Source: Ctena decussata
Lineage: Eukaryota; Mollusca; Bivalvia; Lucinida; Lucinidae
Assembly (NCBI GenBank): GCA_963989385.1
Contig: OZ022501.1
Span: forward strand, 94,038,979 to 94,102,978
Reading direction: 5' to 3'
DNA: 64,000 nt
In this document: positions 12,255 through 63,970 of the stretch, piece after piece
How the letters are laid out: each line of letters starts with the position of its first letter
Position numbering within the stretch: the stretch's first letter is position 1
Notes under the pieces: generated by a model
The model's input: the letters and a program-made list of their open reading frames with translations, nothing else
The model's database searches: none
Told to the model about the DNA's origin: nothing
Made by a program: the position numbers and the translations under genes

Positions 12255-14210
12255 ACAGAATGTATATTGCACAAAATTACTATATGGCTTGCCTTCAGAC
12301 TGTCAGTTTGAATTGTGTCCAGAATGTATATTGCACAAAATTGCTACAGTCTGTCTTGTCTCCAGAATATTGAACAAAATTGCTACAGTCTGTCTTGTCT
12401 CCAGAATGTATATTGCATAAATTTGCTACTATCACGCTTGTCTCCAGAACGTATATTGCACAAAATTGCTACAGTCTAGCTTGTCTCCAGAATGTACATT
12501 GCACAATTTGCTATAGTCTGTCTTGTCTCCAGAATATTGCACAAAATTGCTACAGTCTAGCTTGTCTCCAGAATGTACATTGCACAAAATTGCTACAGTC
12601 TGGCTTGTCTCCAGAATGTATATTGCACAAAATTGCTACAGTCTAGCTTGTCTCCAGAAGGTACATTGCACAAAATTGCTACAGTCTGTCTTGTCTCCAG
12701 AATATTGCACAAAATTGCTACAGTTTGTCTTGTCTCCAGAATGTATAGTGCACAAATTTGCTACTGTCTAGCTTGTCTCCAGAATGTATATTGCACAAAA
12801 TTGCTAGAGTCTGGCTTGTCTCCAGAATGTTTATTGCACAATTTGCTATAGTCTGGCTTGTCTCCAAAATGTATATTGCACAAAATTGCTACAGTCTGAC
12901 TTGTCTCCAGAAAGTATATTGCACAAAATTGCTACAGTCTGGCTTGTCTCCAGAATGTATATTGCACAATTTGCTATAGTCAGGCTTGTCTCCAAAATGT
13001 ATATTGCACAAAATTGCTACAGTCTGACTTGTCTCCAGAAAGTATATTGCACAAAATTGCTACAGTCTGGCTTGTCTCCAGAATGTATATTGCCGATTTG
13101 CTACAGTCTGGCTTGTCTCCAGAATGTATATTGCACAAAATTGCTACAGTCTGGCTTGTCTCCAGAATGTATATTGCAAAAAATTGCTACAGTCTGACTT
13201 GTCTCCAGAATGTATATTGCATAAATTTGCTACTATCTAGCTTGTCTCCAGAACGTATATTGCACAAAATTGCTACAGTCAGGCTTGTCTCCAGAATGTA
13301 TATTGCACAAAATTGCTACAGTCTGACTTGTCTCTAGAAAGTATATTGCACAAAATTGCTACAGTCTGGCTTGTCTCCAGAATGTATATTGCCGATTTGC
13401 TACAGTCTGGCTTGTCTCCAGAATGTATATTGCACAAAATTGCTACAGTCTGGCTTGTCCCCAGAATGTATATTGCAAAAAATTGCTACAGTCTGACTTG
13501 TCTCCAGAATGTATATTGCACAAAATTGCTACAGTCTGGCTTGTCTCCAGAATGTATATTGCCGATTTGCTACAGTCTGGCTTGTCTCCAGAATGTATAT
13601 TGCACAAAATTGCTACAGTCTGGCTTGTCTCCAGAATGTATATTGCAAAAAATTGCTACAGTCTGACTTGTCTCCAGAATGTATATTGCACAATATTTGC
13701 TACAGTCTGGCTATTCTCCAGAATGTAGATGCACAAAATTGCTACAGTCTGATTTGTCCTCAGAATGTATATTGCACAAACTTGCTACAGTCTGGCTTGT
13801 CTCCAGTATGTATTTTGCACAAAAGTGCTACAGTCTGACTTGTCTCCAGAAAGTATATTGCACAATTTGCTACAGTCTGGCGTGTCTCCAGAATGTATAT
13901 TGCACAAAATTGCTACAGTCTGGCTTGTCTCCAGAATGCATATTGCACAAAATTGCTACAGTCAGGCTTGTCTCCAGAATGTATAATGAATAAAATTGCT
14001 ACCGTCTGACTTGTCTCCAGAATGTATATTGCACAAAATTGCTACAGTCTGGCTTGTCTCCAGAATGTATATTGCAAAAAATTGCTACAGTCTGGTTTGT
14101 CTCCAGAATGTATATTGAATAAAAGTGCTACAGTCTGACTTGTCTCCAGAATGTATTTTGCACAAAATTGCTACAGTCTGGCTTGTCTCCAGAATGTATA
14201 TTGCAGAAAA
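12255..14210. repeat. 43-bp satellite array
   Basis: About 45 head-to-tail monomers of consensus 43 bp, recognisable by CTTGTCTCCAGAATGTATAT followed by TGCACAAAATTGCTACAGTC. Variant monomers (GCCGATTTGC at 13091, 13391 and 13561; TGCAAAAAATT; TGCATAAATTTG) recur in the same order, giving a higher-order repeat of about four monomers (170 bp). Because 43 is not a multiple of 3, every frame stays partly open and long repetitive reading frames arise by chance; they are not genes. Confidence 0.95.
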
Positions 14211-15255
14211 TAACTTGAATGTGGTATTTCTGTAAAATGTTTACTGCACAAAAGTGCTATAATTTAGCTTGCCTCCAGAAATCATGTACATGTATATACT
14301 TTAATATTGCTTGTGTCCAAAATGTGTATTGCACACAGTAACTTTATTATGGCTTTTCTCCAGAATTTAAAGCACACAAAATAACAACAGTATGGCTTGT
14401 GTCTTACGTGTAGACCACACAAAATTACAATAATATTGCTTTTCTCCAGGATGCAAAGTACACAAAATTACTAGAATATGGCTTTTGTCCAAAATGCAGT
14501 TCACACAAAATTTCTGCTATATGGCATGTCTCCAGAATGCACATTGCCCAGCTCTACTTAACTATGGCATGCTTCAAGAATGAAAATTGCAGAAAGGTTC
14601 TACATATGGCTTGTCAAACAAAATTACTATAGTATAGCTTGTGTTCAGAATGTATATTGCTAAAACTGCAACAATATGGCTTGTTTGCAGAATGAATATT
14701 TAGCAAAATTACTACAGTAATGCATGTCTCCAGAATGTATATTACACAAAATCAATACAATTTGGTTTGCCTCCATAATATGTCACAGAAAATTACAATA
14801 TGGCTTGTCTCCAGAATGTATATTGCCCAAAAATACAACATGGCTGGTCTACAGAATGTAAATCACTCAAAATTACTATAATATTGGTTGTTTCCAGAAT
14901 GTTATTCACACCAAATTTGGCTTGTCTTCAGAAACAAATCACGCAAAGTTACTTCAAGGTGGCATGTCTCCAGAATGTAAATTACTATAAATTTCAACAA
15001 TATTGCTCATCTGCAGAAAGCAAATTACACAGTTACTACACTATGACTTGTTTCCAGCATTTCAATCACATAAAATCACTACATGTATAATTCTGCTTGT
15101 CTCCATGATGTAAATTTCACAAAATTACTATGATACGGCTAGTGTCGAGAATGGATACTGCGCAAAAGTATAAAACATGGCTGGTATAAAGAATGTAAAC
15201 CATACAAAATTACAGTGACAGCTTGCCTACAGAATGCAAATTACACGAAGAAGTT
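14211..15255. repeat. Decayed flank of the 43-bp satellite
   Basis: The words GGCTTGTCTCCAGAATG and CACAAAATTACTA continue at irregular spacing with rising divergence. This is the expected older edge of an array whose centre is homogenised. Confidence 0.8.
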
Positions 15256-21775: not shown

Positions 21776-22901
21776 AACTAGAAGGTTGTCCAGGGACAAC
21801 TGGTCGAGCCCGCTGTTCGCTTTAGTGACCTATAAGTATGTCAAGACTAAGTAACTGCTTCACTCTAGAAAGAAGCCAAAAATCATCATGCTTAGCCAGC
21901 ATTTTCTTCTTCTTTTTTTTCAAATTTTCACAAAGGAAAATAAGTAGAAGTGATGACCCAGACAAGCTCAATTTATGACAGTTACAATATCTGACCTTCA
22001 AGTGTGACCTTGACCTTGGACCTACCCAAACACATATGTCACTTGACACTTCCACTCATCAAGAAGAACAATTGAGACAAATTATTTTGAAATCCATCCG
22101 TAAATGTAGAAGTAATGGCTCAGACAAGCTCAATTTATGACCATTTTATCATTTGACCTTCAAGTGTGACCTTGACTTTGGATCTACCTGAACAAATGTT
22201 CCAAATGGCACTTCTACTCATCAAGGAGAACAATTGTGTTAAATTATTTTGAAATCCATTGGTAAATATTGAAGTTATGGCTCAGACAAGCTCAAATTAT
22301 GGCCATTTTATCATTTGACCTTCAAGTGTGACCTTGACCTTGGACCTACCTAAATAAATTTTCCAAATGGCACTTTTAAACATCAAGGAGAACAATTGTG
22401 CCAAATTATTTTGAAATCCATTCATAAATGTAGAAGTAATGGCTCGGACAAGCTCAATTTATGGCCATTTTATCATTTGACCTTCACGTGTGACCTTGAC
22501 CTTGGACCTACCTGAACAAATGTTTCAAATGGCACTTCTATTCATCAAGGAGAACAATTGTGCCAAATTATTTTGAAATCCATCCATAAATGTAGAAGTT
22601 ATGGCTCGGACAAGCTCAAATTATGGCCATTTTGGACAAGCTCAAATTATGGCCATTTTATCATTTGACCTTCAAGTGTGACCTTGACCTTGCACCTACC
22701 TGAACAAATGTTTCAAATGGCACTTCTACTCATCAAGGAGAACAATTATGCCAAATTATTTTGAAATTCATCCATAAATGTAGAAGTTATGGCCCGGACA
22801 AATCCGGACGGACGCACGCACGCACGCACTAACGCACGCACGGACATACACCGAACTGACATTGTAACAACTATGTCTCGCTCACCGCAAGCGGGCTCGA
22901 C
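21776..22901 (-). mobile_element. Helentron-like element E4 with 162-bp array
   Basis: On the minus strand it starts GTCGAGCCCGCTTGCGG, runs through about five ~162-bp units (CATTTGACCTTCAAGTGTGACC-type word near 22150, 22311, 22473 and 22671), and ends with subterminal AGCGGGCTCGAC, the hairpin GTTGTCCCTGGACAAC and CTTCTAGTT. It splits a LINE frame without duplicating target bases, so both ends are exact to a base or two. A ~36-bp local duplication lies near 22620-22660. Relatives: the array at 45110-45790 and the 3' end at 48470-48605. Confidence 0.82.
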
Positions 22902-41944: not shown

Positions 41945-43195
41945 TTAAGAGTCATTCTCTGTAAGCACCAAAAAATTGCAATAGGGGGTGAAAATGACAT
42001 ATCTCAGATTTTCATGAAACTTAGTGTCTTTCTTGCTTATGTCAAGTGATGAACAAAAATACAATTTTTTCTCCAGTCAAACTGGCCGTTTCCATGGCAA
42101 CGAGGATTTTCTGTTTTTTTGCCTAATTTGGTGATTTTTCATATAAAAAATGCCAGATTTGACGCCAGTTGTATTGATAGTATTTCTCAACATATGTTAT
42201 TGACACTCATGTTTTTTAAGAGACCCATGTAAGTGCTGTGCACGCATAGAAAAAAATCTTTATATTGCTATGGTCAGGGAGTTGGTGACCTTGACTTCTA
42301 TCTAGTAAAGCATCTCTTTAAAAATATAAAAAATTGGCCAATTTTGAAAGCACTTTGTTAGAAAATGCGGCTATAGATTTTTTTCATTTTCTTGGTACAG
42401 AGAGTTTAACACCTACCTCTTAATATATCAAAAAATTGGAGATGGTATATTTTTTAAATTGAAAATAATTTTCTTTGAATTTAGTCACCCTCAGGGAAAT
42501 CAGAAGAAACTGTTATTGCAGAAAATCTGTTATAAGGGATAAAATCTGGAGAATAATAAGCAAATATGAGCAGAAATACAAATAAATACATTGAATACAG
42601 TGGAGGGAAGTTACATAAATACTTTTCTCATTCAGAAGTTTACAGTTTGGGGTTCAATTACCCCACCCACATCCACTGAATATGAAATGAATGCAAAAGT
42701 TACATGCCATGGATAATATATCTCAAGTTTCCATAATTGTGAGTAAACTGAAACATTTTTAAAAGATCACCACATGTTTGCTGTCATTGTTTTTACATTG
42801 TTTATCATTTGGTAACCATGGTAACCGTTATTCTATTATAGGTCAGTGTTCATTTACATGGATATTTACAGGAAATCGTTTCAATGTTGATGAAACATAT
42901 TGTTTGTTATTTACTTTTTACATATGCATACGCATTCTAAGTGTTGATTTTGTTAAATAATAAACGATAAATCAGTATTTTTATAGTTGCTATGACAAAA
43001 GCACTCATTCCTTCCACAAAGAAATTAGGCAATCTGAGTGTATGTAGTACAGTGTAGTGAAAGAACAGTAACTGAGCATAAATAGAGATAGATACATGGA
43101 GAAGAAATAAACCACACATACAATGTTTATATTTTTTCATTCATTAATATGTTTAATCTGTATATCCAGGGGGTGAGTTACCCCACCCACCTCAT
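41945..43195 (+). repeat. 1.2-kb dispersed module M, copy 2
   Basis: Starts GAGTCATTCTCTGTAAGCAC. Landmarks CCATGGCAACGAG (42092), CCCCACCCAC (42661), ACCATGGTAACCG (42814) and CCCCACCCAC (43181). Its first 740 bp are matched by the complement of 52395-53120. Confidence 0.8.
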
Positions 43196-44900: not shown

Positions 44901-45109
44901 CTTCGTCTGGTGGGGCCCTAATAACCAGTTATGAATCTTCTCCAAATGATGATTTAGGGCCAGTTTAGCATAATTCCAACAACTGCTTCGTAATATAGGG
45001 TATAGGTAAGCCATTCTTTAAACATTTTAAGACCACCTCTGACCTCCAAAACAGAATGAAGGTCAAACATCCATCTAGCAGCTTTCTATGACTTCCTGGG
45101 ACCTTTAAA

Positions 45110-45790
45110 ACTTCTATATGTATGGATAGATTTCAAAATAATTGTGCACAGTTGTTCTCCTTGATGAGCAGAAGTGCCGTTTGAAACATTCGTTCAGGTA
45201 GGTCCAAGGTCAAGGTCACACTTAAAGGTCAAATGGTAAAATGGTCATATATTGAGCTTGTCCGAGCCATTACTTCTACATTTATAGATGGATTTCAAAA
45301 TAATTTGGCACGATTGTTCTCCTTAATGAGTAAAAGTGCCATTTGGAACATTTGGCCAGGTAGGGCCAATGTCAAGGTCACATTCGATGGTCAAATGATA
45401 AAAATTGACATAAATTGAGCTTGTCCGGGCCATAACAGCTACATTTATGCATGGATTAAAAAACGGCACAGTTGTTCTCCTTGATGAGTTAAAGTACCAT
45501 TTGAAACATCTGCAGGTATATCCAATGTCAAGGTTACACTTGAAGGTCAAATGATAAAAATACAAGTAGTCATAAATAGGGCTTGTCCTGGCCATTACTT
45601 CTACATTTATGGATGAATTTCAAGACAGTTTGGCACAATTGTTCTCCTTGATGAGTAGAAGTGGTATGTGGAATTTATTAAGGTAGGTCCAAGGTCAAGG
45701 TCACACTTGAAGGTCAAACGATAAAAAATGTCATAAACTGAGCTTGTCCAGGCCATATAATTTATACAGTTATGCATGAATTTCAAAATA
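45110..45790 (-). repeat. E4-type 162-bp array, left part
   Basis: In inverse orientation it repeats TTGTTCTCCTTGATGAG and GGTCCAAGGTCAAGGTCACA about four times. It is cut at 45791 by a 2.5-kb element and continues at 48307-48430. Confidence 0.82.
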
Positions 45791-48306
45791 GGACGGAGTG
45801 TGTGTAGCTGGTAGATCCAGTAGAGTTCTCTGTTTTTTCTAGTAACAGCTTTTTTGGTGTTCCGGATCTGTGGACAGGATTTCAATAATTTGAAACCCCA
45901 TGTGTTCTGTAGAATGGTTGGGTAAGTTAAATGTGCTGCTACCAGAGTGTCCCGTTTATTGCGGGTGTCACGCTGGTGTTCTGTCATTCTAACTTGGTTA
46001 CTATTCTCACAGTGAACATTTGTGGTTCGGGGTAAAGCCGTGGTGGGTAATTGTTAGCAATGATCATAATTGTATTATTGCTTTCTTGAAATGACATATG
46101 TCACGATCATGGGTTAGTACAAATGGGTTCGGCTGTTTTGCTGAACAGGCTTGTTTCCCCGCCGTAGCAGGGTGTCCCCATTTGCTTTTCGAGCTTTTTC
46201 GAGGCTCTGTAGCAGTGTGTTCTGCGGATACCCTCTTCTAATGTAATAGCCCGTAAAGATTTCGGCATGTTTGTCATAATCATACAGCTGGACGGACGTA
46301 GTCTGACTGAGAGACCGGCGGGAGGTAGGTCCTTGCCAATGCATTCCCAAAGTCAGGAAGGAGACTTAGTTCTCTCATGTTCACCATTCTGGATAGAACT
46401 CGTCTTGCCTCTTTGTAGAACAGCATGACCTCAGCTGGTAAATCTAGAGTCTTCATTTTCTTGGACGGCTCTTCCTCCGCCATTGCATCCCTTGTCCTTT
46501 TCTTCAGGTCTCTGCTGGGATGATGGTCACTTGCGACGAAGAGCCTGACGTAGATGTCAGGGTCAGTGAGCTAATGATTGGGCTGACTGACATGTCACTG
46601 GTGGTCTGTCTTGGATTCATCAGAGTGAACGCCGACCTCGGAGCATCCTAGTCCTAGCGAGGGGTAGTAGCATAAACGCTGGAGGATTGTGACTGACGAC
46701 ATGGGCCAGGCGCTCCTCGGTCTTGCTCATGCTGGTTCATGGCTTTCTTTCGCAATTTTCCTAACTAGTTTCTTCCAATAATATGGATTTCTTCAGAGTA
46801 TTGTCACGATTCTGGCGAGCTGTGTTTTTGCGCTGTTTATATACCATATCGGGGGGCCGGTGAACCGGCCCTTTTGGCGCCATTGCGCCTGCGTGGACGG
46901 CCATTGTTGTACCGGCCCCCGGGGGCCGGTGGGCGTGTTTTGCGCCTCTCGCCGGCCCTCGGGGGCCGGTGGCGTTGCTATCCACCATTGTAGGCGTGTA
47001 TGGCGACGTCGACCGGCCCCCGGGGGCGGTGACGTTGCTATCAGCCATTTTCTTACTGTTGAGCGTGACGCTTGGTTCAGTGTGTTTATTTCCTGTTTTT
47101 AGGAGATTAAAAATGGCGGATCGTTGTGTGGAGTCTGGCAAATGCTTTGAGCTATCCGCTTGGTTGCATGTTCATGAATTACCTACCTCCCGCCGGTCTC
47201 TCAGTCAGACTACGTCCGTCCAGCTGTATGATTATGACAAACATGCCGAAATCTTTACGGGCTATTACATTAGAAGAGGGTATCCGCAGAACACACTGCT
47301 ACAGAGCCTCGAAAAAGCTTGAAAAGCAAATGTGGACACCCTGCTACGGCGGGAAAACAAGCCTGTTCAGCAAAACAGCCGAACCCATTTGTACTAACCC
47401 ATGATCGTGACATATGTCATTTCAAGAAAGCAATAATACAATTATGATCATTGCTAACAATTACCCACCACGGCTTTACCCCGAACCACAAATGTTCACT
47501 GTGAGAATAGTAACCAAGTTAGAATGACAGAACACCAGCGTGACACCCGCAATAAACGGGACACTCTGGTAGCAGCACATTTTAACTTACCCAACCATTC
47601 TACAGAACACATGGGGTTTCAAATTATTGAAATCCTGTCCACAGATCCGGAACACCAAAAAAGCTGTTACTAGAAAAACAGAGAACTCTACTGGATCTAC
47701 CAGCTACACACACTCCGTCCGGTCGGGATCAATGTTCATGAATAAGACTGGAGCTTGTCAGCCACTCACTTTTACATTTATGTCTCCTCCCGTTCCAGTA
47801 CTTATTCATGAACATGCAACCAAGCGGATAGCTCAAAGCATTTGCATGTAACGGCCAGACTCCACACAACGATCCGCCATTTTTAATCTCCTAAAAACAG
47901 GAAATAAACACACTGAACCAAGCGTCACGCTCAACAGTAAGAAAATGGCTGATAGCAACGTCACCGGCCCCCGGGGGCCGGTCGACGTCGCCATTCACGC
48001 CTACAATGGTGGATAGCAACGCCACCGGCCAGAGGCGCAAAACACGCCCACCGGCCCCCGGGGGCCGGTACAACAATGGCCGTCCACGCAGGCGCAATGG
48101 TGCCAAAAGGGCCGGTTCACCGGCCCCCCGATATGGTATATAAACAGCGCAAAAACACAGCTCGCCAGAATCGTGACAATCCTCTGAAGAAATCCATATT
48201 ATTGGAAGAAACTAGTTAGGAAAATTGCGAAAGAAAGCCATGAACCAGCATGAGCAAGACCGAGGAGCGCCTGGCCCATGTCGTCAGTCACAATCCTCCA
48301 GCGTTT
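45791..48306 (-). mobile_element. 2.5-kb element with two interleaved inverted repeats
   Basis: Inserted into an E4-type repeat unit and flanked by a 15-bp duplication ATGAATTTCAAAATA (45776-45790, 48307-48321). Order: A' 45791-46330, unique U 46331-46670, B' 46671-47179, A 47181-47720, spacer 47721-47803, B 47804-48306. A'/A (540 bp each, roughly 99% by eye) and B'/B (about 500 bp) are inverted pairs. The minus strand B'-U-A' reads promoter-like TATATAAACAGC, an ATG at about 46743, then frames containing MAEEEPSKKMKTLDLP and RRGYPQNTLLQSLEKA, the latter resembling the region after the polymerase core of some retroelement reverse transcriptases. The catalytic core is absent. Class uncertain; Penelope-like or another retroelement is possible. 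Confidence 0.8.
46114..46483 (-). pseudogene. Retroelement protein remnant in the 2.5-kb element
   Basis: Two overlapping minus frames (46483 to about 46325, then 46350 to 46114) join at the U/A' boundary by a frameshift. The first begins MAEEEPSKKMKTLDLPAEVM. The second contains YDKHAEIFTGYYIRRGYPQN and stops at 46114; a following VLTHD...KKAI-like stretch lies in another frame. The order RGYP-block then VLTHD-like block resembles reverse-transcriptase thumb and linker regions, but no YxDD core is present. Low certainty on family. Confidence 0.4.
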
Positions 48307-48430
48307 ATGAATTTCAAAATATTTTGGCACAATTGTTCTCCTTGACGAGTAGAAATGTTTGTTCAGGTTGGTCCAAGGTCAAGGTCACACTTCAAGGTCA
48401 AATAATAAAATGGTCATAATGGGTGCTTGT
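48307..48430 (-). repeat. E4-type array, right part
   Basis: Resumes the unit broken at 45790 (TTGGCACAATTGTTCTCCTT, GGTCCAAGGTCAAGGTCACA). Confidence 0.8.
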
Positions 48431-48469
48431 CATGGCCAAAGTTCCACTTGTTTTCCTTCATAAGAAAAA

Positions 48470-48605
48470 AAAAGAAGAAATATGCTATATCATGATATAT
48501 GATTGTTTGGCTTCTTTCTAATAAGTAAATGAAGCAGTTAGTCTTGACAAACTTATAGGTCACTAAAGCAAACAGTGGGCTCGCCAAGTTGTCCCTGGAC
48601 AACCA
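48470..48605 (+). mobile_element. 3' end of an E4-family element
   Basis: Reads GGTCACTAAAGCAAACAG, AGCGGGCTC-like CAGTGGGCTCGCC, the hairpin GTTGTCCCTGGACAAC and CATCTAATT. It matches the complement of 21776-21910 closely, so this is the opposite-strand counterpart of the E4 terminus. Confidence 0.75.
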
Positions 48606-48629
48606 TCTAATTAATTATTTCCTATGTTC

Positions 48630-49175
48630 CAATGGTGTGTCTGTGCAAGTTTGGTCACACTCAATCTGTTGATTCCGGAGATATGGTGCAAGCAAGCCAT
48701 TTTTAACACTGTAAGTCCTCATGTGACCTTGAATATAAGGTCAATGTCACCAAAGTCTAACAGTGTTTCCCCACCTCCTTATAATATACCTGTGCAAGTT
48801 TGATCAAAAGTCATAAATCCCTTCAGAAGATATGTCGAATACAAACCATTTTCACTGTTTTTGACCTCCTGTGACCTGAAAATATGGTCAAAGTCACCAA
48901 CTTTTTTCAGTTCTTTTCCACTTCCCTGTCATATATTTGTGCAAGTTTGATCTAAATCTGTCCACCCCTTCAATACATATGGCGCCAACAAGCCACTGAG
49001 ATACCTCCTATGACCTTGAAATGGGGTCAACGTCACCAAAATCTATTCAGCTCTTTTTCCCCACCCAAAGATGTATCTTTGCAAGTTTGGTGAAAATACA
49101 TTTAACCCTTCAGGAGATAGAGTGCAGACATGAAGCACCAAAACAACATACCTGCCTTCCCTTCCCCCCCCCCCC
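48630..49175 (+). repeat. ~153-bp tandem array, part 1
   Basis: Words TGTGCAAGTTTGGTC, GGAGATATGGTGCA and CCTGTGACCTTGAAAAT recur about every 150 bp. Ends in a poly-C tract at about 49165-49178. Confidence 0.75.
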
Positions 49176-52394: not shown

Positions 52395-53120
52395 TTGCAT
52401 TGAAAGAAAGTGGGTGGGGTAATTTAACCCCAAATTGTAAGGTACTGACGTATTTTTGAGGGTGATAACTCTCTATGTAGTTTTCTTCAGTTGTTAATCA
52501 TGCATCAACTTGTATTTTGGCTCATATTTCTTGAAAATGTTCAAGATGTTGTATTTTATCTCAGAATTTCAATTATGGAAGTTGCTTCTGATTTCTCTGA
52601 CGGTGACTAAATTCAAAGAAAAATATTTTCAATTTAAAAAATATACCATCTCCAATTTTTTGATATATCAACAACTAGGCTTTGTACTCTCTGCACCAAG
52701 AGAAAGAAAAAAATCTATAGCCGCATTTTTTAGTAAAACGTCTTAAAAATTTGCTGATTTTTGATGTTTTGAAATAGACGCCTTACAAGGTGGAAGTCAA
52801 GGTCATTGACTGCTTGACCATAGCAATATGAAGAAACTTTTCTGTATTTGTAAGCAGCACTTACATGGTCTTCTTGTAAAATGTAAGTATCAATACCATT
52901 TGTTGTGAATTACTACCAGAGCAATTGGAGTCAAATCTTGCATTTTTCATTTGAAAAATCACCAGATTAGGCTGAAAAACAGAAAATCCTGGTTGCCATG
53001 GCAACGGATAGTTTGATCGAAGAAAAACTTTTATTTTTGTTCATCACTTGACATAGGCAAAAAAGACACTGAGTTTTGTGAAAATCTGAGACATGTCATT
53101 TTCACCAGATTTTGGTGCTT
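52395..53120 (-). repeat. Module M, copy 3 (inverted, partial)
   Basis: The complement of 41945-42690: GTGGGTGGGGTAATTTAACC at 52410, GTTGCCATGGCAACGG at about 52989, TTTGGTGCTTACAGAGAATG at 53111. Confidence 0.82.
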
Positions 53121-62168: not shown

Positions 62169-63970
62169 GTAACCCTTCTACTCTGTCCTTAGTCCAGCTC
62201 CGGACCGAAATTATTTCAGAAACAAAGTTTCTAATTTAGGTCCAGCACCTGTAAGTCTTCCTCAGTGTGGGTATTTCAGATGCTGATAAAATCATTTTGG
62301 CACATTAGAAACTGTGCATTAATCAAAATATTATGTTTTCTTTTTGATAAATAACAGCCTTTTTCTTCTTCTGACCTTCCCAAAGTCCGTTGAAACGCAA
62401 TTTCTTTTCACCCCTCTAGAGGAAAATGCTTCAATGCCAGCCCACTGTCTCTTAGAAAAGGTAAAATTGGTGGCAGTCATGATCCGAAATGGCCAGAGAA
62501 CACAACCGCTTATGTTTTTTCCTAAGTGTTTCAAAAATAATGATTTTATCAGTGTATAGAAATTCCCCGGTAGCATTTACCGGCAAAAACCCAGCAGTAG
62601 CGGAATAGGTGAGGCCTGGGCCGTGAAAATTGAAACTTGTTTCTGGGCATTTTCCGGCCCAGAGCTGGGCTACTCTGTCCTATTTTGGCGTGCAGGAAGA
62701 GTGGTTAAATTACTTCCGATGTCGACGACCGGACTGGTATCCGCATAGACAATTGTAAAAATTATGTTATGGAGAAGTTCAGGCTAGCTGTCCTGTCCAG
62801 CTATATTCTATACTATAAACTGCAACAATTTGACATTATTCTTGGTCTTCCACCTATGTTATTGAACCCCAGATGAAATGAAAAAACAACAACAACAACA
62901 AAAAAACAGTAGGATGTTGGCATGATACTTCTGAGATAATTTCTAGGCATTCTGCAGGGAAAAAAAACATTTTGTAAATAAAACAGTCGTTGTTTGTAGA
63001 TTGGAATTAAAAGTGTTGTTAGACAGACGCAAGGTTTTCAGTTTGTATAGAACATCCGTCCCTTGGAGGCACCTTGGGCCGTATTCATAAAACGACTTAA
63101 GTCGTTGCTATGCTGTTGCTAAGGCTAAATTTCTTTGAAGGAGATTCCCTACAACTATGAAATTTGCTCTGGAGGAACAGTCTTACAAAGACTGTTCCTC
63201 CAGAGCATATTTCATAGTTGTAGGGAATCTCCTTTATAGATATTTAGCCTTAGCAACAGCATAGCAACCACTTAAGCGGCTTTATGAATACGGCCCCAGT
63301 TCGGAAGGTAACATAGACAAACACCATCCACCCTGGAACAGATGCCCTTAGCAATGAGTTATGCAGCTGCACCATCAAACGTATCTTTTAATATACACTG
63401 TAAAAAGACGTAAATTTTACGGTAGAATAACCGGCAACCAGCTGCCAGTTAATTTCTCGTTATTTTTACGGGCACCTGTAAAACTTTGCAGGAATTACCA
63501 AGCAGAGTAGAATGGAATGGAACAGGTGTTGTTGTGGCCATATTGCCCTTCAACACTATATGGGTATTTTCGAGTGCGGCCATTAAATATAATACAACCA
63601 TATCATAATTTCAGACAATGTTTAACAGGCAGACGCCCGTAAAAATAACGGGAAATGGACTGGCAGCTGGTTGCCAGTTATTTTACTGTAAAATCTACAT
63701 ATATTTTTACAGTCTAGAAATATTAAAGCATCGAGTCCTTCTAAAATTTATTGACTGGACCTCATCCGCTTTTTGGTACCAGTAATGAATGCGAGTAGTA
63801 TTGACATTGTAGGCGCATCATGAAATAATCTCGAACTTAAAACTTGGGCATTTTGCTATCTTCTGTACTTTCAGGGGCGTTTTCATACCAGAATCACCCT
63901 ATCTACAAAGTGGACGTGCTTGGTGTGGTTGTACGAGTAAACGAAAATTCTAAATGTTTTATATATGCAG
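62015..63970 (+). CDS. STN1: CST complex subunit STN1, first two coding exons
   Basis: STN1 (OBFC1) pairs with CTC1 and TEN1 in the CST complex, which binds single-stranded telomeric DNA and supports fill-in by DNA polymerase alpha. Exon 1 62015-62168 and exon 2 63875-63970 have GT/AG borders and join in phase 1. The reading has an acidic N-terminus, then LWGLDYHFSVYNKMYIKDIL, FPGAFSYQNHPIYKVDVLGV and VVRVNENSKCFIYAG. This is the start of the OB fold and follows vertebrate STN1 in order. The Met at 62015 is chosen because it sets the right distance to the LWGLD block and fits the family length. About 83 residues are present; the rest lies right of the window. Two MITEs sit in the intron. Confidence 0.92.
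63076..63296. mobile_element. Palindromic MITE D
   Basis: A 221-bp near-perfect palindrome starting GGGCCGTATTCATAAA and ending TTTATGAATACGGCCC, with centre CTTACAAAG. In STN1 intron 1. Confidence 0.88.
63397..63713. mobile_element. MITE family E, intact copy
   Basis: Inverted ends ACTGTAAAAAGACGTAAATT and ATTTTTACAGT; inner GGCAACCAGCTGCCAGTTA pairs with TGGCAGCTGGTTGCCAGTTA-type sequence. It ends 161 bp before STN1 exon 2. Confidence 0.85.
63875..63970 (+). CDS. STN1: STN1 exon 2
   Basis: Acceptor CTTTCAG, donor GTATAC; 32 codons with IYKVDVLGVVVRVNE, the first OB-fold strands. Confidence 0.92.

Follow-up and report, generated by a model that had tools for sequence, protein, structure and literature searches.

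Penelope-like elements (PLEs) are arranged as a pseudo-long terminal repeat (pLTR), an open reading frame (ORF) and a further pLTR, in tandem or partial tandem (PMC3846280, PMC11167929). The element considered here is a non-autonomous PLE, inserted at positions 45776..48321 of a 64,000-nucleotide stretch of the genome of the bivalve Ctena decussata (GCA_963989385.1, contig OZ022501.1, positions 94,038,979 to 94,102,978); this whole stretch is termed the window. Poseidon of Anolis carolinensis (PAc) resembles the window element in being a PLE found in tandem with pLTRs and at AT-rich targets (PMC11167929). In vitro, both target strands are cut and then extended by the protein of PAc, and an AC-rich stem-loop within the RNA is where reverse transcription begins, a likeness to the reading proposed below for the window family. 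Two adjacent start sites in this stem-loop bound a ‘tail’ and are not strand-specific (PMC11167929); the start sites of the window family lie about 540 nt apart in the tandem, one per insertion end. In addition, PAc has a hammerhead ribozyme, and none was found in the window element.

The Penelope families of Adineta vaga share with the window family direct and inverted pLTRs, partial tandems, head-to-head inverted copies, target duplications, internal deletions and palindromes near the pLTR start, and two Pen3 contigs carry permuted, inverted overlapping halves (PMC3846280). They differ in having few copies and no rule that assigns sites to ends, and in that self-priming is proposed for them.

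Retrozymes are likewise non-autonomous and built of tandem units, possibly with circular RNA, but they carry hammerhead ribozymes, which the window element was not found to have. In LINE-1 twin priming, two complementary DNAs (cDNAs) are made from both sides of the cut on one RNA and are joined in inverted order. The window family would be similar in the two cDNAs from two cut sides and in the inverted joining. In LINE-1, however, one of the starts lies at the poly(A) end and inversions arise occasionally, whereas in the window family both starts are internal and their pairing is regular.

The window element is likely to represent one insertion of a non-autonomous PLE, in which both cut ends of the target primed internally, at two sites here termed S1 and S2, on a multimeric or circular RNA, and the resulting cDNAs were end-joined. 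The evidence for this reading comes from the ends, joints and units of related insertions across the genome.

Layout of the Window Insertion

The insertion is a single block of about 2.52 kb, with A′, U and B′ on the minus strand followed from left to right by A, a spacer and B on the plus strand. The original prediction had described this interleaved layout from the letters of the window, and every part that it named was found in place. Its view that the block landed as one unit is upheld by a perfect 15-bp target duplication, ATGAATTTCAAAATA, flanking the whole. The parts are as follows, with unit positions referring to the 1486-bp tandem unit described in the next section.

45776..45790, no strand: left target-site duplication, 15 bp, ATGAATTTCAAAATA, perfect
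45791..46330, minus: A′, 3′ part of the PLE coding region, with a thumb remnant and the C-terminal half of the GIY-YIG nuclease, broken
46331..46670, minus: U, N-terminal part of the coding region, with weak likeness to the N-terminus of the protein P0045
46671..47179, minus: B′, leader/promoter (pLTR-like) copy
46689..46697, minus: GTCAGTCAC motif preceding S1, internal copy, not an insertion end here
47180..47180, no strand: inner head-to-head joint with 1 nt of filler (an extra T)
47181..47720, plus: A, second copy of the 3′ coding part
47721..47803, plus: spacer, with the last codons, the stop and the 3′ untranslated region (UTR)
47757..47765, plus: GTCAGCCAC motif preceding S2, internal copy
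47804..48309, plus: B, leader/promoter (pLTR-like) copy, its right outer end at S1 (unit 522)
48137..48144, plus: TATA-like box TATATAAA, recognized by eye
48283..48291, plus: GTCAGTCAC motif preceding the S1 end used in the window
48307..48321, no strand: right target-site duplication, 15 bp, ATGAATTTCAAAATA, with ATG common to the element

The inverted pair A (45791-46330 minus, 47181-47720 plus) is identical in 536 of 543 aligned columns, and the inverted pair B (46671-47179 minus, 47804-48309 plus) in 492 of 521. Gap columns make up 25 of the 29 non-identical columns of the B pair, which include gaps of 10 and 14 nt. A chance origin is ruled out for arms of such length and similarity. B contains GC palindromes, and because its end has ATG in common with the duplication, the true end is either 48306 or 48309. 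The left outer end corresponds to unit 1403 and falls in an AC-rich stretch that precedes S2 by about 60 nt. The spacer and adjoining bases form a strong hairpin (47732-47815) with S2 in its loop. The insertion sits inside a 162-bp satellite array, and joining its flanks with one copy of the duplication restores the monomer in phase. With E up to 0.01, a blastn search for the element in the 64-kb window gave no match but itself.

The Tandem Unit

Searches covered the same genome as the window (1.66 Gb, 245 contigs). First-look candidates numbered 278, 319 and 98, of which the best 40 in each case were scored, so that the counts are minimum values and the searches favour copies of high identity. 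The matches listed number at least 42 for spacer plus B, at least 40 for A and at least 40 for U. Same-strand neighbours are spaced 1480-1491 bp apart in 11 pairs of the spacer-plus-B list and in 17 pairs of the A list. The unit used for mapping, in the order B-U-A-spacer, measures 1486 bp and was taken from one head-to-tail array on contig C5. The original prediction had held that the A-spacer-B join implies a tandem or circular form, and had pointed to a genome search for copies of B-U-A; such copies do occur, as 1486-bp head-to-tail arrays. The tail-to-head join is in fact ordinary, the normal arrangement of a PLE, because these elements run pLTR-ORF-pLTR in tandem or partial tandem.

Outward Arms and Paired Ends

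Matches were grouped by hand into 41 clusters, and 23 of the 40 besides the window were examined, via 25 regions. Altogether 24 loci were mapped onto the C5-derived unit, and 17 of these, the window included, are two-sided with both outer ends visible. The two-sided counts leave out five one-sided loci (L027, L032, L033, L035 and L044), one locus with convergent arms (L029) and one that is incomplete in the examined region (L043). Outer ends are the limits of BLAST matches, and bases common with the duplication give each an uncertainty of up to 8 nt.

All 17 two-sided loci have the minus arm on the left and the plus arm on the right, facing outward, and all have a target duplication of 14-18 bp with 0 or 1 mismatch. 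The match scores of these duplications are 11-18, compared to at most 9 in 272 left/right flank pairs drawn from different loci, and the duplications are 74% AT compared to 65% in the flanks. Arm lengths range from less than 0.1 to more than 4 units.

The outer ends form two clusters. In the 5′ cluster, 16 of 17 ends lie at unit 511-525 (S1) and one at 403; in the 3′ cluster, 15 of 17 lie at unit 1458-1468 (S2), one at 1382 and that of the window at 1403. Every two-sided locus pairs one 5′-cluster end with one 3′-cluster end, 14 of the 17 being strict S1/S2 pairs. No locus uses the same site twice (0/17), an outcome with a probability of 7.6e-6 under free and even choice. The S1 and S2 intervals hold 31 of the 34 outer ends (0.6 expected) and none of the 34 inner ends. 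A target motif oriented relative to S1 and S2, hinted at by column counts, was dropped after a flip test (P 0.29 and 0.90).

This pairing bears directly on self-priming, in which a single cDNA folds back and is copied into head-to-head repeats, a hypothesis put forward with an antisense template for rotifer Penelope elements (PMC3846280). The head-to-head order matches the description given there, but folding back predicts one identical start site at both ends, which is seen in 0/17 loci, and it therefore does not fit.

A DNA transposon with terminal inverted repeats can also be judged by these ends. In its favour are the inverted arms and the flanking target duplication, but the outer ends differ in sequence, the arms vary from less than 0.1 to more than 4 units and the coding remnant is of RT/GIY-YIG type (RT, reverse transcriptase). 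The simple transposon that the original prediction had named as an alternative is excluded by outer ends at two different unit positions in 17/17 loci, and a transposon of this kind is scarcely conceivable here.

A third explanation would have the order made by later inversion or recombination between copies, or by assembly error. Inverted GC-rich repeats are difficult to assemble, and B and B′ do differ by the 10- and 14-nt gaps; against this, the same design with paired end sites is found at 17 loci with different target duplications. Assembly error appears unlikely as the source of the window structure, because the outward design with its own target duplication recurs at 16 further two-sided loci, and very little credence attaches to this explanation as a whole.

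Putative Start Sites S1 and S2

The unit has exactly two copies of the motif GTCAGYCAC, one at 496 and one at 1440, each in the sense orientation, and no antisense copy. The clustered outer ends lie 15-29 nt (S1) and 18-28 nt (S2) after the start of the motif. Two motifs per unit were obtained in 0 of 3000 dinucleotide shuffles, a test that overstates the case because the motif was picked after the sites were known. Immediately past the stop codon there is a strong hairpin (z -4.64) whose loop contains S2. Visual inspection shows similar AC-rich strings ahead of substitute starts, GTGACAATCCTC for 403 and CTACACACACTCC for 1403. After the stop codon the unit has CAGCCACTC, and L046, a locus on contig C11 with an open 778-residue frame, has CAGTCACTC. 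A first reading that placed S1 inside the ORF was weakened, as the longest frame begins at unit 573, downstream of S1.

Inner Joints and Uniformity of Units

In contrast to the outer ends, the inner ends are scattered with no pile-up (Kolmogorov–Smirnov P 0.13). Sixteen inner joints were inspected, the complex joint of L038 being left out. Half of them (8/16) share bases, 1-9 nt and in one case 28 nt at a GC palindrome in C10, and the other half carry filler, 1-4 nt and in one case 26 nt in C5; judging by these junctions, they look like products of end joining. At 13 of 17 loci the inner joints are out of register by 65-634 nt, which argues against self-priming. In its favour, the inner coordinates fall within 20 nt of each other at 4 of 17 loci (0.5 expected), and one joint (L039) is a GC palindrome. 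These four near-equal joints may derive from fold-back priming, but self-priming as the explanation is improbable.

The units within an insertion are very similar. They differ by 0.24% when pooled and by a mean of 0.71% over 18 insertions, compared to 1.94% between insertions, and by 0.18% across opposite arms of one insertion (the 500-base overlap of L039 and L040 being counted once). The C5 locus has 0 differences in 17,849 compared sites from 19 pairs. At 19 polymorphic sites common to several insertions, 11 of 278 cells are mixed, compared to 128 expected for random units. Since units are alike within insertions, each insertion seems to be derived from one unit type. A circular monomer RNA explains this simply, and a young uniform array would also do so.

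The latter case, in which two-ended insertion copies a linear RNA transcribed from a young, uniform tandem array and not a circle, has about an even chance of being correct. Arrays in tandem are present in the genome, and the RNA-seq data on PAc were read as confirmation of its tandem organization, with a multi-copy mRNA proposed (PMC11167929). Moreover, no circle-making ribozyme was found: Rfam over positions 45000-49000 gave ten chance-level matches up to E 5 and no ribozyme, the hammerhead included. Strings of the form CTGANGA...GAAA, found in a pattern search for hammerheads, were judged by eye not to fit. What counts against a linear template is that the near-identical units of each insertion (11/278 mixed cells against 128 expected) would require a uniform source every time, and that the inner ends do not pile up (P 0.13).

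Proposed Two-Ended Priming

The proposed mechanism would begin with a PLE protein that acts in trans and cuts the target with a stagger of 14-18 nt, leaving 3′ overhangs that would give rise to the target duplication. Antisense cDNA would then be primed within the element RNA by both exposed 3′ ends. One of these would use S1 (about 511-525) and its partner S2 (about 1458-1468), both starts lying just downstream of a GTCAGYCAC motif. Both cDNAs would be extended toward the 5′ side, crossing unit borders on a multimeric or circular template. Finally, they would be end-joined head to head and the gaps filled, yielding outward arms within the target duplication. With antisense cDNA on the 3′ end of each flank, the 3′-side ends come to face outward and the 5′ sides meet at the centre, as observed. 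For the window insertion this would mean a right arm begun at S1 and a left arm begun at unit 1403, with S2 about 60 nt further downstream. The special inversion or template switch invoked by the original prediction appears to be unneeded, as outward arms with one end per start region point to two target-primed cDNAs.

A number of points weigh against two-ended priming. It rests on assembled genome sequence, and 3 of 17 loci, including the window, have one substitute start (403, 1382 or 1403). Five of the 24 loci are one-sided (three with S2 ends, two with S1 ends), and one of the 24, L029, has convergent arms. S1 in the window copy has no strong hairpin (z -0.06). The near-equal inner coordinates at 4/17 loci are what fold-back priming would give, and genome searches found no match to a direct autonomous parent of the element. 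In addition, the two strands showed no difference of start site in the PAc study (PMC11167929).

Among the one-sided loci, the duplications measure 16 bp at L027, 10 bp at L033 and about 10 bp at L035, and none is convincing at L032 and L044. At L029 (4171-5451; G000:C13:3982870-3984150), a plus arm ends at unit 528 and, 44 bp further on, a minus arm starts at 528, with no shared duplication; this locus is perhaps two insertions side by side.

A more specific version would make the pairing of sites obligatory. One circular RNA would be held by an RT/nuclease dimer at two start motifs that differ from each other. Each target strand would prime at one of them and both polymerases would roll round the circle, producing outward arrays of identical units, one array ending at S1 and the other at S2. 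This version is tentative, and it is somewhat doubtful that it will prove correct.

Class and Coding Content

The right-hand A translates, with stops and frameshifts, as the C-terminal end of a PLE protein. A protein search with A inside a whole-frame reading (151 candidates) matched two proteins, P0001 and P0002, both of which carry RVT_1 and GIY-YIG domains. The match to P0001 has an E of 6.7e-32, with 71% identity over 40% of the 187-residue region. A aligns to P0001 at about 216-311, the thumb after the RT core, and at 418-492, the second half of the GIY-YIG nuclease; the latter piece covers the last 75 residues, at 71% identity. This homology bears out the guess of a Penelope-like origin. 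The alignment also shows the RT core and the GIY-YIG centre to be deleted in the window copy, in agreement with the earlier remark that core domains are missing. Of the RT and GIY-YIG domains for which a search between U and A had been suggested, the RT core is absent from the window copy and from the 1486-bp unit. Because the RT core is deleted, the element is filed as a deletion derivative and not as an autonomous PLE. On its coding sequence, we regard its class as settled, a non-autonomous PLE that is an internal deletion derivative of ordinary family membership.

A 90-residue frame of the array unit (U) resembles the N-terminus of P0045, an 808-residue relative, at 30% identity (E 2.4e-6 among 120 proteins; next-best E 0.8). 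The unit thus comprises a leader, a probable N-terminus, a C-terminus and a 3′ UTR. Searched against the protein database, U matched none of 109 candidates at E up to 0.01, and a tblastn search with unit 1-900 found nothing at E up to 1e-3. Pfam on the translated fragments gave one irrelevant weak match, with the GIY-YIG fragment itself unmatched, and a sequence search of PDB with P0002 gave 0 matches.

By eye, P0001 and P0002 have a cysteine-rich linker between RT and GIY-YIG, a feature described for Neptune (PMC3846280). The linker is deleted in the window element, and kinship with the Neptune group is a tentative suggestion from this feature of its relatives. L046 was considered as the direct parent and rejected: its 74% DNA identity is confined to two 3′ pieces (258 and 55 columns), with nothing in the leader, which makes it a relative.

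The best genome match to P0001 (G000:C5:56951162-56952640) is 86% identical and has a 678-residue open frame, with the uniform short-unit array of C5 only about 20 kb away. A further PLE protein, P0003, 66% identical, is filed as bacterial, from a Candidatus Thiodiazotropha taylori bin. Candidatus Thiodiazotropha is a clam symbiont, and the protein probably reflects host-animal DNA in a symbiont assembly. This protein and satellites of the type seen in the window are in keeping with a bivalve host.

Other Repeats in the Window

The 162-bp satellite that houses the insertion forms two arrays in the window (45110-45790 and 21944-22801), on opposite strands and 84-89% complementary. The window also contains a 43-bp tandem repeat of about 45 copies (12313-14541), a near-perfect palindrome (63073-63299) with 112-nt arms that are 92% complementary and 3 nt apart, and a diverged inverted repeat pair (41987-42637 and 52454-53106; 76-83%) with about 10 kb between its members.

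A Second Family and Wider Meaning

With P0001 as the query, 87 matches were listed in the same genome; 12 of them, unlike the rest in identity or length, were dropped before counting. The remaining 75 constitute a second PLE family, 39-40% identical to P0001, with copies about 3475 bp apart that often have 930-residue open frames; it looks recently active. Neighbour orientations in 40 clusters are minus-plus in 17, plus-minus in 1, minus-minus in 10 and plus-plus in 7, the same outward design. GTCAGYCAC is absent from the roughly 110 nt of readable 3′ UTR of this family. Its multi-copy clusters (G000:C8:75776691-75799869 and 20 others) are in tandem, as is also seen at L047.

Among the open-licence papers listed in literature searches, none was seen to describe a pairing of start sites between the ends of a PLE insertion, which is weak evidence of novelty, and the end-pairing rule is worth following. 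The integration of PLEs is poorly understood, and inverted copies have so far been ascribed to self-priming. Many insertions with two distinguishable end sites make the routes testable, because the ends of an insertion should carry different sites under two-ended priming and the same site under self-priming; the sites are different in 17/17 loci. The motif of the family also names short candidate cis signals. If the rule is general, it would point to a route of retrotransposition that extends each of the two target strands on the RNA from a defined internal site, different for the two.
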